A stretch of 46,685 nucleotides of DNA from a virus: the IMG/VR virus record IMGVR_UViG_3300042291_000585, positions 1 to 46,685 of that record, one strand, 5' to 3'. This document shows, piece by piece, positions 6,154-39,876 of this stretch. Under the pieces are notes generated by a model. The model was given only the letters and a program-made list of their open reading frames with translations, made no database searches and had not been told where the DNA came from. A program made the position numbers and the translations under genes. The stretch's first letter is position 1. Each line of letters opens with the position of its first letter.

Positions 6154-6619
6154 GATTACCCGCCTAGACCTGGAATATGTGGCCAGGAATATGCGTGAAC
6201 TTGACAGGATTGAAATAATGTCTGGCCGTTGGTCAGACAGTATTGATGACTTTATCTACAGTTTTGATGTCGGGGATAATGCCATGGGGTATGTAGCCTC
6301 TGTTGATGGAATTCCTGTCGCTATTTTTGGTGCAATCCCCGTATCACCTACCTTTTGGGCACCGTATCTGTTTGCTACAGACAGACTGTCTGAGGTCGCC
6401 TACACGGTCGCTAAGTTTATTAAGAAGTCCATGATTCCTGGCATTGCGAAACTTGGACACTTCAGGGCAGAATGTCGGTCCATCGATGGTCATGTCAACG
6501 CACACAAGTGGCTACGAATGCTTGGCTTCAAATATCAGGTTGCGTGTCCGCTGATGGGCAAGAACGGAGAGACATTCCACCTTTTTGCCTTGTGTCATAA
6601 GGGTTCTCAGACAGATTAA
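6131..6619 (+). CDS. T7 gp13-like internal virion protein (GNAT-type fold, DUF2833-like)
   Basis: A 162-residue protein whose N-terminus (YVARNMRELDRIEIMSG), central PVAIFGAIPV and C-terminal HKWLRMLGFKYQ match the pattern of T7 gp13/DUF2833, a small acetyltransferase-like fold needed for virion morphogenesis. Whether it acetylates anything is unknown. ATG 6131 overlaps the end of the nozzle gene by 23 bases; longer in-frame starts would lie entirely within the nozzle gene. Its place between nozzle and internal virion genes agrees with T7 order. Confidence 0.72.
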   Translation: MNSTTLTKITRLDLEYVARNMRELDRIEIMSGRWSDSIDDFIYSFDVGDNAMGYVASVDGIPVAIFGAIPVSPTFWAPYLFATDRLSEVAYTVAKFIKKSMIPGIAKLGHFRAECRSIDGHVNAHKWLRMLGFKYQVACPLMGKNGETFHLFALCHKGSQTD

Positions 6620-32321: not shown

Positions 32322-32537
32322 TTAGAGTTGGCCGACCCACGAGTCGATGAACTTTTCGGCGTCCGCCTTGTGGACGAACTTGTGCTCGACCGTCTGCTCG
32401 GCCTTGCCTGTCTGATTGTCGTAGACTTCTTCCCGCACGACCCACATGCCGTCCTCATGGAGAGGGAGCATGTCTATCTGCGTGACGAGGATGACGGCCC
32501 GCTTGTTGCCTTTACGGTTTCGGTTGTTGTGCTTCAT
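32322..32537 (-). CDS. Small unknown protein downstream of a hammerhead ribozyme (71 residues)
   Basis: A basic Asn/Arg start (MKHNNRNRKGNKRAVILVTQ) is followed by a possible small beta domain and FVHKADAEKFIDSW, a pattern seen in short phage proteins that follow a two-strand and helix layout. The start codon lies 51 bases after the end of the ribozyme at 32589-32660, so ribozyme cutting would leave this gene and its followers on an RNA with a short processed leader. Confidence 0.58.
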   Translation of the reverse strand: MKHNNRNRKGNKRAVILVTQIDMLPLHEDGMWVVREEVYDNQTGKAEQTVEHKFVHKADAEKFIDSWVGQL

Positions 32538-32588
32538 GTCTGTCTGGTTGTTTGGTTTTTGGTTGGGGGTGAAAGTTGTCTCTGCGAG

Positions 32589-32660
32589 GGACTCGTCAGT
32601 CTGGGCATTACCCAGATACAGACAAACGCACCATGCCTGTTGCGTCTGTCTGTTTCGTCC
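32589..32660 (-). ncRNA. Type II hammerhead ribozyme 2
   Basis: On the minus strand, in order: GGAC (stem II); G-A-A core; stem III of 13 bp from A32653, including one G-U pair, with loop 32631-32640; U then A as the cleavage position 17; stem I TCTGGG/CCCAGA with loop TAATG; core CTGACGA (the CUGANGA box, N7 = C); and GTCC closing stem II. All invariant hammerhead nucleotides are present, with a GUA cleavage triplet. Predicted cut: between minus-strand bases 32617 and 32616. It starts 10 bases after a stop codon and lies in a 133-base spacer. Confidence 0.88.
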
Positions 32661-32670
32661 TGTCTGGTTC

Positions 32671-33162
32671 TTAGTTGAACCGAGAGCCCGAACTGAAGGG
32701 GTCGATGTCATCGTCCTTCTTCTTCTTGCCTTCGGGCGGTTTGACAATCTTGGTGTGCGGGGTCGCAGAGAAGAACTCATCGATGAAGCCCTTCGTGTCT
32801 TGCTGGAACCGTTCGATGTGCGTGGCCGTCACCGACTCCACGGACATACCCTTGGCCTCACAGCCCTCGCAGATTTTCTGGTCGTGCATGGTCAGTTCGG
32901 AACCGACCTTGCAGACAGTCTTGCTGATAAGGACCATGCCACGCTTCATCAACTGAAGTTCCTTCAGGGCCTCGTCCACCTTGCCGTCCTGCAGGAGGTC
33001 CTCAATCTTCTTGATGTCCTCAGACATGGACCCAGCGGTGACCGCCGCAATGACGGTCGCTTGGGTGATGTGTCCGAGGAAGTTCAGGAATTCCTGAGCC
33101 TCCATGGCGATGTGGTGACCGTTCGGGTCGAAGCCACCGTTCTGGTTCTGGTTGTTCGTCAT
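32671..33162 (-). CDS. Unknown protein with Cys motif and acidic tail (163 residues)
   Basis: Asn/Gln-rich start, helical middle (IKKIEDLLQDGKVDEALKE), a CEGC pair (in KICEGCEAKG) and a Lys-then-Asp-rich tail ending DPFSSGSRFN. No family recognised. The leader AATACGAACATG matches other starts in this operon. The opposite strand has a 294-codon open frame that I treat as a shadow. Ribozyme 2 follows its stop. Confidence 0.62.
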   Translation of the reverse strand: MTNNQNQNGGFDPNGHHIAMEAQEFLNFLGHITQATVIAAVTAGSMSEDIKKIEDLLQDGKVDEALKELQLMKRGMVLISKTVCKVGSELTMHDQKICEGCEAKGMSVESVTATHIERFQQDTKGFIDEFFSATPHTKIVKPPEGKKKKDDDIDPFSSGSRFN

Positions 33163-36450: not shown

Positions 36451-37125
36451 TCAGACGCCCTTGCGATTGCCACGCTCGTAGATGGCGGTGGGCGGACACA
36501 TTCCCACAAGACACCAGAGTTCGTGTCTGAGTTTGGTCAGGTCATTGTGCTCGCCCACGATTGGGACGATGACGAAGTGCTTCCACATGTCTTTGTCCAG
36601 ACAGTCGGCGGCCTTGATGACAGCAGACAGGTCATTCGGGTCTGTCTGTCCAAGCGGGGTTCCGCTGATGCTGTGTCTGGGCATCTGTCCGATGCCTTTG
36701 ACACGGTTCGGGTAGTGCGTGATTTCGTGAATGAGCGAGGCGATGTGATTCTGGACAGACAGACAGAATCCATTCGGATTCGTCTCGCAGACATACCGTT
36801 CGTAGCCAACGCCATTGTCTGCATGAGGCCCGTGGTCTGGGCCGACAGACATGGTCAGGTCTGCAATTTTCTTTTCCGTCTGGGCCACGAGTTCAGCCAG
36901 ACGACCGACCTGCAAAGGGCTCAAGCCCTTTGTGCTCAGGGACATCAGGGCCTTCCTGTTCAGTTCCAGCGTTTCGATTTCAGACAGCACCACTTGGTGC
37001 TGTGTCTGGGCGGGTTCGGGCTTGGCCATCACGAAGACATGCCTTCCATCAGGGATGCCGTTGGCATCGGTGAGCATGACTTTCTTCTGAACCAGACCGT
37101 TCGGGATTTGGGGGTGTTTTTTCAT
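36451..37125 (-). CDS. Unknown protein downstream of a hammerhead ribozyme (224 residues)
   Basis: N-terminal beta-rich part (VMLTDANGIPDGRHVFVMA), a helical middle (LSEIETLELNRKALMSL; RLAELVAQTEKKIADL) and a C-terminal part with HEITH (133-137), which fits the HExxH zinc motif but without other support. No family recognised. ATG 37125 lies 19 bases after the ribozyme. The coding sequence contains several perfect hairpins (36913-36932 and 36984-37003, 9 bp each), continuing the ladder of the two upstream genes. Confidence 0.6.
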   Translation of the reverse strand: MKKHPQIPNGLVQKKVMLTDANGIPDGRHVFVMAKPEPAQTQHQVVLSEIETLELNRKALMSLSTKGLSPLQVGRLAELVAQTEKKIADLTMSVGPDHGPHADNGVGYERYVCETNPNGFCLSVQNHIASLIHEITHYPNRVKGIGQMPRHSISGTPLGQTDPNDLSAVIKAADCLDKDMWKHFVIVPIVGEHNDLTKLRHELWCLVGMCPPTAIYERGNRKGV

Positions 37126-37144
37126 GGTGGGAAAGTTGTCTGAT

Positions 37145-37204
37145 GGACTCATCAGTTGCGGTTTCACCGCAAGACAGACACCCCGAAGGGTGTCTGTTTC
37201 GTCC
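37145..37204 (-). ncRNA. Type II hammerhead ribozyme 1
   Basis: On the minus strand, in order: GGAC (37204-37201, stem II); G-A-A core; stem III ACAGACACCC/GGGTGTCTGT, 10 perfect bp closed by TTCG; C at position 17 (GUC triplet); stem I TTGCGGT/ACCGCAA with loop GAA; core CTGATGA (37155-37149); GTCC (37148-37145) closing stem II. Every invariant hammerhead nucleotide is present, with stem II open to the flanks (type II). Predicted cut: between 37173 and 37172. GGAC begins directly after the TAA stop of the upstream gene; the next ATG is 19 bases beyond. Confidence 0.93.
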
Positions 37205-38170
37205 TTACATGTTGCTCAGGTCACCGAAGTCCAAGGCGAAGCCGTTCGTCTTGAAGATTTCAGACAGAGTCTGAAGTGCTCCCTTGGGGGTGCCGTAGTA
37301 ACCGTCTCTTGCCAGAGGCAAGTAGATGGTGCCTTCAGACAACTTGTCCGTAGGACCCCGACAGGTCGAACCGTAGTCACCATCAAGGATGTCTCGGACA
37401 GACCCCGAAGGGGTCTTGAAATTCCACAGACATTCTCGTCCCGAGAAGAACAGGCGTCGGAAGGTCGCAGGATGAGCCAACCAGACAGCCATGGTATTCA
37501 GGTCAAGAGGTGCACCAGCCCACTTGATTAAGACACGCTGACAGATTGGTTCACCGTGGGAAGTTGCGGCCGATTCGGCCCAGACCTCACATTGCTTTCC
37601 AGACCGTTCAATGGCTTGAATTGCGGCCACGATTCCAGCACCTCGATTGAACAGATACTCTGCAGAGTATCCAGCAGTAGCACCGACAGGAACCACCAAC
37701 TTGATGACCTTGGCTCCGCCAATGCTGTCTTCCTCGGGGTCCACATCGTAGTGGTCAGGAGCACCAGAGCAGAAAGTTGCTACGCAAAGCGAACCTCCAG
37801 CAATGTCGCTGTCTGGGATTCTTCCGAAGGAAGCGGTCGAAGGGAAGGTCGCTTGGGCGGTCTTTAGACCGTCAACGCCAGCCTTCCAACCTTCCACCAG
37901 AATCTTCTGGTGGCCTTCCCAACCCGTATTCAAGTCCCAAGACTTGGAAGGGCTGTTGGTTCGGGAGTGGCGACTGTGACCTGTTGCCATACCGTCGAAG
38001 ACGGTCTGGAAGTTCAGGTATTTTTCGATGCTGTCTGCTTCCAGCATGACGAAATTCGACGAAGTCGAACCGCTGTCGAACTGAGAGGTCAGACGGACAC
38101 CTTCAGACAGACTGACAGTCTGTCGTTCCTTGGGAAGGACCATGAGGTCCTTGAGTTTGTCGTTAGACAT
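37205..38170 (-). CDS. DUF7192-like partner of the MoxR ATPase
   Basis: 321 residues. Recognisable pieces: SWDLNTGWEGHQKILVEG (the W-G...GW pattern of DUF7192), a central KVIKLVVPVGATAGYSAEYL followed by NRGAGIVAAIQAIERSG and QCEVWAES, resembling a VWA-like or DUF7192 core with a strand, an Arg-Gly loop and a helix. Such proteins pair with MoxR/CobS-type AAA+ ATPases in phages; the biochemical role is unknown, perhaps a chaperone-like complex. About twenty perfect hairpins lie inside the coding sequence. Leader AAAATACCAACATG; its stop abuts ribozyme 1. Confidence 0.68.
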   Translation of the reverse strand: MSNDKLKDLMVLPKERQTVSLSEGVRLTSQFDSGSTSSNFVMLEADSIEKYLNFQTVFDGMATGHSRHSRTNSPSKSWDLNTGWEGHQKILVEGWKAGVDGLKTAQATFPSTASFGRIPDSDIAGGSLCVATFCSGAPDHYDVDPEEDSIGGAKVIKLVVPVGATAGYSAEYLFNRGAGIVAAIQAIERSGKQCEVWAESAATSHGEPICQRVLIKWAGAPLDLNTMAVWLAHPATFRRLFFSGRECLWNFKTPSGSVRDILDGDYGSTCRGPTDKLSEGTIYLPLARDGYYGTPKGALQTLSEIFKTNGFALDFGDLSNM

Positions 38171-38187
38171 GTTGGTATTTTGGGTTT

Positions 38188-38235
38188 GTTGTCTTTCAGA
38201 CAACCCCTCGGGGTGAGGGGCTGTCCGAAGGACAG
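38188..38235. other. Three consecutive hairpins in the ATPase-partner spacer
   Basis: GTTGTCT-TTC-AGACAAC (38188-38204), CCCCTC-GGGGT-GAGGGG (38204-38220) and CTGTCC-GAA-GGACAG (38221-38235) stand end to end and fill most of the 70-base spacer. Three helices in a row recall the ribozyme spacer at 37140-37204, but no CUGANGA box is present and no T run follows. Confidence 0.85.
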
Positions 38236-38240
38236 TTGGG

Positions 38241-39761
38241 TTAGGCGGTGACAGCAGGGGTGACGATGGCCTTGGCCTTCTCGGCCTCAAAGAGGCCCTT
38301 GAGACGCTTTCGGGTGTTTTCGTCAGACAGTTTGTTCCAGACAAGGACCTCCATGAGGTCCTCCTTAGTCTTGAAGACGGTGCGATTGGGGTTCGTCAGG
38401 AGTTTCACTCCCATGAAGGTCGCTCGGGGGCTGAGAATCATGTTGATGCTGTTGGCTTTAGCCAACTTGCGAATCAGACAGACATCCTCATTCCAATCCA
38501 GACAGACAGCCAAATCCGTAGGATTTCCACCGCACATCTTCGTGACAATCTGTTTCACCAGATTGTTGTCGTAGTCGCAGGTATGGACCGTGAAACGGTC
38601 CTTAGTGGCACCGTCCAGCAACTGTCGGGCCGAATAGGCCGCCGTAGCACCGTCACCGTTGGTGTTGGCTGAAGCCATCACCCTGAAATCAGGGTGAGCC
38701 TTGATAGTGACATCGGGGAAGTCGCAAACTCCGTTTGCCAAGGCCGCATTGAGTTGGAGAAGGACACCGCTGTCTGAGGCATCGATTTCATCGAACAGGA
38801 ACAGACCGCCGTTTTCAAAGGCATCTCGGAAGGTCGTAGACCGATAGTTGCCATGGGCATCGATGAAACCGAACAGTTTGAAGTCCTTTCGGACAGCACC
38901 AGACATGAACAACCTGAGTCCCAAGGACTCAGCGACCGAACTAGCCAGAGTGGTTTTACCACTTCCAGCAGGACCGAAGACGAAAGCATTCAGACCGACA
39001 GACATGGCTTCCACGACTTCGTCGTGGAGAGCATGTTTCATCACCTTCGGTGCTTTCGGGGTCTTCTTGGGAGTCGGAACAGACAACGGAGTTGTCTGAG
39101 GGGTCGTGGGCTGGGCGGTCGGGGCAGACGGAGTCTGCTGAGTCTGCTGATTCTGAGCAGCAGACGGAGTCTGCTGGCCAGACTTCTGAAGCATCTGATT
39201 CAGAATGATGTCGGTGACATCATTGTAGACAGCACCGAGTTCCTTCACCGTGGCCCAACCAGACACCGAAAAGGCTACGCCTTTCTCGGTGAGCCACTTC
39301 TTGATGAGGTTCTTGTTACCATTCCGTCCAGAGGACGGCTTGATGGTTCCCCGAGGGCCGATTAGGGCCTCCAAGGCTAAAGCCTTGAGGTTGGGCGGGG
39401 CGGGCTGCTGGGGCTGGGTGGGTGGGATGTTGGGCATGGGATTTTGGGTGGGATTAGGCATGGGATTTTGGGGGGTGGAATTGGGGGCCGTCTGAGCCGA
39501 AGGCTCCGTGGGCGGGGTGGGCGTCTGGCTGGGGGTGGGCTCGTGGGAAGGTTCAGACGGCGAACCGTTGCTGGGCGAACCGTTCACATTCCCCATAGGG
39601 GAAGGAGTCGGTTCCGCCGTCTGATTTCCAGCGGGCTGGTGGCTGGGGGTGGGCTGGTGGCTGACCTGTGGCGTTTGACAGCGACAGACAGGGGTCGGGT
39701 TTTGGGTGAGGCCGATGACCAGAGGGGTCAGCGGGCTGTTTTGGGATGCGGTTTTTGGCAT
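38241..39761 (-). CDS. MoxR/CobS-like AAA+ ATPase with long Pro/Thr-rich N-terminus
   Basis: 506 residues from ATG 39761. Residues ~20-125 are Pro/Gln/Thr-rich and disordered; ~127-195 form a small helical domain; ~195-240 again low complexity; then the AAA+ core: Walker A GPAGSGKT (263-270), Walker B FLFDEID (321-327), a sensor-1-like VMASANTNGDG and a C-terminal lid. This is the AAA_5/MoxR-CobS type that remodels a partner, usually encoded next door, here the DUF7192-like protein. First gene of the leftward operon, divergent from terS. More than twenty short perfect hairpins occur in the coding sequence. Confidence 0.84.
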   Translation of the reverse strand: MPKTASQNSPLTPLVIGLTQNPTPVCRCQTPQVSHQPTPSHQPAGNQTAEPTPSPMGNVNGSPSNGSPSEPSHEPTPSQTPTPPTEPSAQTAPNSTPQNPMPNPTQNPMPNIPPTQPQQPAPPNLKALALEALIGPRGTIKPSSGRNGNKNLIKKWLTEKGVAFSVSGWATVKELGAVYNDVTDIILNQMLQKSGQQTPSAAQNQQTQQTPSAPTAQPTTPQTTPLSVPTPKKTPKAPKVMKHALHDEVVEAMSVGLNAFVFGPAGSGKTTLASSVAESLGLRLFMSGAVRKDFKLFGFIDAHGNYRSTTFRDAFENGGLFLFDEIDASDSGVLLQLNAALANGVCDFPDVTIKAHPDFRVMASANTNGDGATAAYSARQLLDGATKDRFTVHTCDYDNNLVKQIVTKMCGGNPTDLAVCLDWNEDVCLIRKLAKANSINMILSPRATFMGVKLLTNPNRTVFKTKEDLMEVLVWNKLSDENTRKRLKGLFEAEKAKAIVTPAVTA

Positions 39762-39876
39762 GGCGATTGGAGTTATGGTCAAATGCCGACGATTTGTCGA
39801 ATTTATTTTTCAGACATCGATTGACAGAAGTCGATTTGGACCCCAATTTTGTTGGTCGAAACGCATTTTTCGATTT
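39762..39876. promoter_or_regulatory. Divergent control region between the leftward operon and terS
   Basis: 115 bases, A/T-richer than the surroundings. It contains CGAC-GATTT-GTCG (39788-39800 region), a TTGACA-like word reading rightward near 39820, and ATGCCGACGAT at 39783, a diverged form of the ATGCCTACAAT word found in both promoter-like stem-loops. Probably carries the main leftward promoter and a terS promoter, but I cannot assign -10 boxes. Confidence 0.45.

Follow-up and report, generated by a model that had tools for sequence, protein, structure and literature searches.

The 46,685-nt window analysed here (IMG/VR virus record IMGVR_UViG_3300042291_000585, positions 1 to 46,685) carries two type II hammerhead ribozymes between genes on its minus strand, and behind each lies a short RNA segment, here called the anti-core, that is matched to the ribozyme's own catalytic core and is predicted to be able to refold that core into an inactive hairpin. 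The hammerheads themselves, intergenic and on the coding strand, are an already known type of element. What appears to be new is the downstream element; its novelty is provisional because our literature search, which found no earlier account of a refolding element in type II hammerheads and no DUF7192 literature, covered open-access papers only. We consider it probable that bistable RNAs make up a widespread subclass of phage type II hammerheads, in which the 3' element has coevolved with the core (CUGAN7 with N7'UCAG) and, following cleavage or in competition with it, refolds that core, making the cutting of polycistronic phage mRNA one-way or self-limiting and leaving hairpins at both new mRNA ends.

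Hammerhead 1 lies at 37145..37204 on the minus strand. It starts on the base following the TAA stop codon (37205..37207, -) of a DUF7192 gene, and the last A of that codon is the conserved A adjoining stem II. Read 5' to 3' along this strand, GGAC (37204-37201), which pairs with GUCC (37148-37145) as a 4-bp stem II, is followed by GAA (37200-37198), a 10-bp stem III (37197-37188/37183-37174) with a UUCG loop (37187-37184), C17 (37173), a 7-bp stem I (37172-37166/37162-37156) with a GAA loop, and the core strand CUGAUGA (37155-37149). A sequence-only reading of this DNA had described a complete type II hammerhead directly after the stop of the DUF7192-like gene, with no invariant nucleotide missing, and our direct re-reading of element order and spacing on the minus strand bore out both statements. 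Hammerhead chemistry predicts a cut between 37173 (C17) and 37172, where that reading had placed it, and the 47 nt from this point to the ATG at 37125 agree with the leader length it gave. The isolated 60 nt fold exactly as a hammerhead (-29.7 kcal/mol, z -4.7), and a pattern combining the core with stem II matches the window once and 100 shuffles not at all. Our covariance model R1, described below, scored the site at 58.3 bits (E 7.4e-16). The Rfam type II model (RF02276), which had been suggested as a check, also matched, but its 29.9 bits (E 4e-4 in 501 nt) fell under the gathering score of 37, a threshold that is a curation cut-off and not a defining trait of type II hammerheads. Sequence and structure confirm 37145-37204 (-) as a complete type II hammerhead with predicted cleavage.

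R1 draws on phage and bacterial hammerheads from 57 separate loci, with the window and the related contig L002 excluded. Its rows were pre-filtered for at least 4 pairs in stems I and III, and in the resulting 57-row alignment 99.9% of stem cells are paired, with a two-sided covariation score of 0.83 vs 0.16 after shuffling. Models from such relatives also detect ribozymes that fall under the Rfam cut-off, and hammerhead 2, which the sequence-only reading had missed, is one example. This ribozyme (32589..32660, -), found by both R1 and a descriptor scan, lies about 4.5 kb downstream of hammerhead 1 on the same strand and in the same gene block. It consists of a GGAC/GUCC stem II, a 13-bp stem III, a UCUGGG/CCCAGA stem I, the core CUGACGA and the cleavage triplet GUA, and its predicted cut falls between 32617 (A17) and 32616 (-). 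Position 7 of the hammerhead core is free. R1 gave hammerhead 2 a score of 46.6 bits (E 3e-12 in the window) and 42.9 bits in L002; the Rfam type II model returned no match to it. Both window sites contain CUGANGA, GAAA and a UH cleavage nucleotide in the right order, with loops closing stems I and III and an open, 4-bp stem II. The descriptor scan, which covered hammerhead types I, II and III across the whole window, detected just this pair, with no hit in 20 shuffles, leaving no candidate of any of the three types beyond them.

Both hammerheads recur in L002. Hammerhead 1 is unchanged there, inside an 80-nt identical block within a region of 90.6% identity, and the DUF7192 protein is 89% identical. 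In hammerhead 2, stem III differs by an A-U to G-U and a G-U to G-C change, both of which keep the pair, and loop I by two changes (UAAUG to UGAGG); stem covariation in relatives is seen both in the R1 rows and in this comparison. We judge it very unlikely that the two sites are passengers or have decayed, with no cleavage in the cell: all core bases are intact in both copies, hammerhead 1 is unchanged in L002, and the changes in hammerhead 2 preserve pairing. In favour of that view, type II hammerheads are absent from Microcystis phage Mae-Yong1326-1 and Rhizobium phage RHph_N65, the annotated phages whose terminases are closest, so the element may be recent in this phage group or may have been lost in those two. 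Searched by DNA, annotated phages gave no homologue of the window region, and relatives of the DUF7192 protein in viral contigs came from the L002 contig only. In L002 an additional 118-aa ORF (6211-6567) sits directly behind the unchanged hammerhead 1 and the retained leader, a hint that genes downstream of the ribozyme may be swapped.

Along the minus strand, the gene order is an AAA ATPase gene (38241..39782; 513 aa, CobS-like by Pfam/PHROG match, phrog_249), the DUF7192 gene (37205..38170; 321 aa, ATG 38170, Pfam PF23822 E 1e-20), which is the last before hammerhead 1, then hammerhead 1, a 224-aa ORF (36451..37125; ATG 37125) without a Pfam or PHROG match, small genes, hammerhead 2 and a 71-aa ORF (32322..32537; ATG 32537). 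The 163-aa gene preceding hammerhead 2 (32671..33162, -) ends in a TAA 10 nt upstream of GGAC. Type II hammerheads in this stop-ribozyme-start arrangement between phage genes have been known since 2011, when some clusters were found to cleave in vitro and in E. coli (Perreault et al., PMC3088659). The sequence-only reading had proposed that hammerhead 1 cuts a polycistronic mRNA between the ATPase and its partner and the gene that follows. This fits the minus-strand gene orientation, the conservation in L002 and the cleavage reported in vivo for a comparable phage cluster (PMC3088659); at the present site we infer both transcription and cleavage. Predicted sigma-70 promoters and terminators between 31 and 40.6 kb of the window occurred at chance level. 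The gap between the ATPase stop and the DUF7192 start (38171-38240, -) is filled by three consecutive hairpins, CTGTCCTTCGGACAG, CCCCTCACCCCGAGGGG and TTGTCTGAAAGACAA, which have no hammerhead core. Scanning both strands of the window, we found only two copies of AGACAACUUUC, one behind hammerhead 1 (37131..37141, -) and one behind hammerhead 2 (32571..32581, -). AGACAACTTTC, which occurs only behind the two ribozymes (37131-37141 and 32571-32581, -), is perhaps a shared leader signal or the trace of a cassette duplication.

For a wider view, we collected 483 distinct type II hammerheads from the matches listed for fixed core patterns, a set that is not a random draw and whose frequencies are not population estimates. 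One such pattern, GGACGAAAC..GUC..CUGAUGAGUCC, had at least 120 matching stretches in viral contigs and only 14 matches in bacterial and archaeal genomes totalling 257 billion bases. The pattern does not demand pairing in stems I and III, and among the matches listed from this core-only selection both stems reach at least 5 bp in 151 of 157. The position next to a gene end also holds across the set: among the matches listed, a same-strand stop codon lies within -20..+5 of stem II in 73% of distinct hammerheads vs 5.9% of random positions, and an A adjoins stem II upstream in 98% and downstream in 83%.

The anti-core of hammerhead 1 is CAUCAG (37140..37145, -), which can pair with CUGAUG (37155-37150) as 6 bp around an AGUC loop; that of hammerhead 2 is CUCGCAG (32582..32588, -), which can pair with CUG(A)CGAG (32599-32592) as 7 bp with one bulged A. 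When hammerhead 1 is folded with its natural tail of 20 nt downstream, a step absent from the sequence-only reading, the predicted lowest-energy structure is the core-strand hairpin and not the hammerhead. Once the tail is added, predicted pairing drops from 0.98 to 0.02 for the second stem II pair of hammerhead 1 and from 0.88 to 0.03 for the outer stem II pair of hammerhead 2; the energy model omits tertiary contacts, and the balance between the two folds is one of predicted secondary structure only. The window anti-core overlaps CAGACA, the commonest hexamer of the genome, so the single window case may partly reflect composition, and the functional evidence rests on the wider set. TGTCTG/CAGACA occurs 281 times on both strands of the window vs 33 expected from dinucleotides, about 6 per kb, and is densest at 30-40 kb; its frequency is 7.8 per kb in L002 and 0.2-0.9 per kb in other hammerhead phages.

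In the collected set, TCAG, the complement of CUGA, recurs at two fixed distances after CUGAUGA. Among the matches listed, it stands at offset 2 in 29 sequences from 13 clusters (clusters being joined by 200-base blastn links) and at offset 5 in 41 sequences from 20 clusters, against a background of 0.7 per offset. Altogether 115 of the 483 type II hammerheads, about a quarter of the matches listed, have TCAG within 14 nt of the core, so the ribozyme can do without this form. In predicted folds, pairing between core and tail exceeds 0.8 with 19.3% of natural tails vs 4.8% of shuffled ones (among the matches listed; cluster test p 0.0025). Closed-stem-II hammerheads show no excess of TCAG (13 near vs 11 far of 159, among the matches listed), and we rejected the idea that TCAG is a general neighbour of hammerheads.

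If TCAG is kept for pairing, the base before it should follow the free position 7 of the core, a prediction that we fixed before testing it on hammerheads with other N7 bases. Among the matches listed, U7 cores are followed by AUCAG in 47 cases and GUCAG in 6, and C7 cores by AUCAG in 2 and GUCAG in 17 (Fisher p 1e-9 by sequence). Counted by cluster, again among the matches listed, the figures are 19 and 4 for U7 and 2 and 10 for C7 (p 2.6e-4). The test gives its clearest result where base +1 is the pairing partner; at offsets of at least 6, where the partner lies elsewhere, it gives p 0.03 by sequence and 0.24 by cluster and is weak alone. Where TCAG is absent, base +1 (A vs G) is unlinked to N7 (p 0.24, among the matches listed), which argues against the covariation arising from N7 touching base +1 directly. 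Single contigs contain both forms, L052 having CUGAUGA GUCC AUCAG and CUGACGA GUCC GUCAG, and L206 having CUGAUGA GAUC AG and CUGACGA GGUC AG.

These data make it unlikely that the window ribozymes are ordinary constitutive type II hammerheads beside which the anti-core is incidental and without a role. The position-specific enrichment, the N7 covariation across clusters and the lack of enrichment beside closed-stem-II types all speak against that reading, as do the two window ribozymes, which have different cores and each its own self-matching element. It draws some support from the majority of collected type II hammerheads that have no TCAG near the core (115/483 have it, among the matches listed) and from the overlap of the window element with an over-used genome word. 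Given the second ribozyme and the core-pairing segments, to describe hammerhead 1 simply as a cutter that is always on may be incomplete. An alternative role for the downstream element would be to hide the AUG within CUGAUGA from ribosome starts, an AUG that in hammerhead 1 is in frame with the ATG of the gene. We consider this highly improbable and rejected it: CUGACGA (C7) has no AUG, yet GUCAG follows in 17 of 20 TCAG-bearing C7 cases at offsets 5-14 (among the matches listed), and hammerhead 2 is itself a C7 case with its own anti-core hairpin.

The explanation that we favour, and hold to be likely, is that the RNA folds and cuts co-transcriptionally and that the anti-core then refolds the 3' product, releasing the upstream RNA. 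Each hammerhead leaving RNA polymerase would fold with stem II closed by GGAC/GUCC, and it could form and cut first because the anti-core is transcribed after the ribozyme. Cleavage after C17 (37173) or A17 (32617) would leave a 5' product whose stem III hairpin is followed by a single unpaired base bearing the 2',3'-cyclic phosphate, and a 3' product whose 5'-OH sits immediately at the stem I hairpin. In a type II hammerhead the core strand would remain part of the 3' product, where the 4-bp stem II and tertiary contacts would tie it to the 5' product. A few nucleotides later, CUGANGA on the 3' product would pair with the anti-core (CAUCAG or CUCGCAG), breaking stem II, freeing the upstream RNA and preventing religation, such that the cut becomes one-way. 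The downstream mRNA would then begin with two adjacent hairpins, stem I and the anti-core hairpin, the upstream mRNA would end in stem III, and the roughly 4.6 kb of RNA between both cuts would have a hairpin at each end. The sequence, structure, conservation and covariation, both within the stems and between N7 and the anti-core, are observed; we infer transcription, cleavage and this order of events, along with any protection of mRNA ends and effects on mRNA life.

The same anti-core could instead act as a timer or off-switch that leaves the RNA no longer to fold and cut than the synthesis of a few further nucleotides takes, then locks uncut RNA in an inactive state. Cut and uncut mRNAs would then occur together, in a ratio that depends on how fast transcription runs, on Mg2+ or on ribosomes passing the adjacent stop codon. 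We regard this as a possible but less probable account. Uncut RNA with its tail is predicted to adopt an almost wholly inactive fold for both window ribozymes, stem II adjoins the stop codon, where a terminating ribosome would cover it, and downstream competing structures blocked another ribozyme in vivo as well as upstream ones did (PMC2817708). Against this, sequential folding favours the upstream ribozyme and the predicted energies leave out tertiary contacts; the anatomy expected of a timer is identical to that of an element trapping the cut product, so sequence cannot separate the two. An element coevolving with the catalytic strand is evidence, from sequence alone, of selection on what becomes of the cut RNA or on how much of the RNA is cut. 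The anti-core bears on the role of hammerheads between phage genes, and the covariation offers a test at a single base pair, N7 and its partner. By its geometry, type II is the permutation able to leave a closed hairpin at both new ends, which we suggest would suit mRNA processing.

Hammerheads of types I and III in viroid and satellite RNAs can alternate between the active form and an inactive structure in which the core is concealed. Those RNAs are circular and replicating, whereas the element here is a short linear 3' segment in phage mRNA, attached to the type II permutation. The window ribozymes resemble RF02276 and the hammerheads of Perreault et al. (2011) in their core, three helices and open stem II, and in lying between genes of phage or prophage operons, often with several per genome; as in the published clusters, in which several hammerheads flank genes on the coding strand, the window has two on the same strand. 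They differ from RF02276 in that hammerhead 1 scores below its threshold and hammerhead 2 is not found, and from published type II hammerheads in a 3' tail complementary to the catalytic strand, a trait of a subset of the set collected here. A different tail interaction, a pseudoknot with loop I, may form in the majority of type II motifs (PMC3088659), a feature reported for most but not all and not a defining type II trait. In our collected set a 4-bp pairing between loop I and the 3' tail is no commoner than in shuffled sequences (21 vs 23, among the matches listed), leaving such a pseudoknot unsupported there. Twister, pistol, hatchet and twister-sister ribozymes are enriched near phage genes and near each other, according to the part of PMC10085705 drawn on here; they have other folds, and that part mentions no covarying anti-core element.

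Other contigs contain many more type II hammerheads than the window: 12 in L087, 11 in L149, 9 in L003, 8 in L019 and 7 in L069, in places nearly one per gene. Type I and III hammerheads, with closed stem II, are also plentiful in phage contigs (L263, L293 and others). Microcystis phage Mae-Yong1326-1, whose terminase at 53% identity makes it the closest annotated relative, contains CobS/CobT-like genes. Its peptidoglycan transglycosylase gene is very large, and the window likewise has a 3121-aa ORF.
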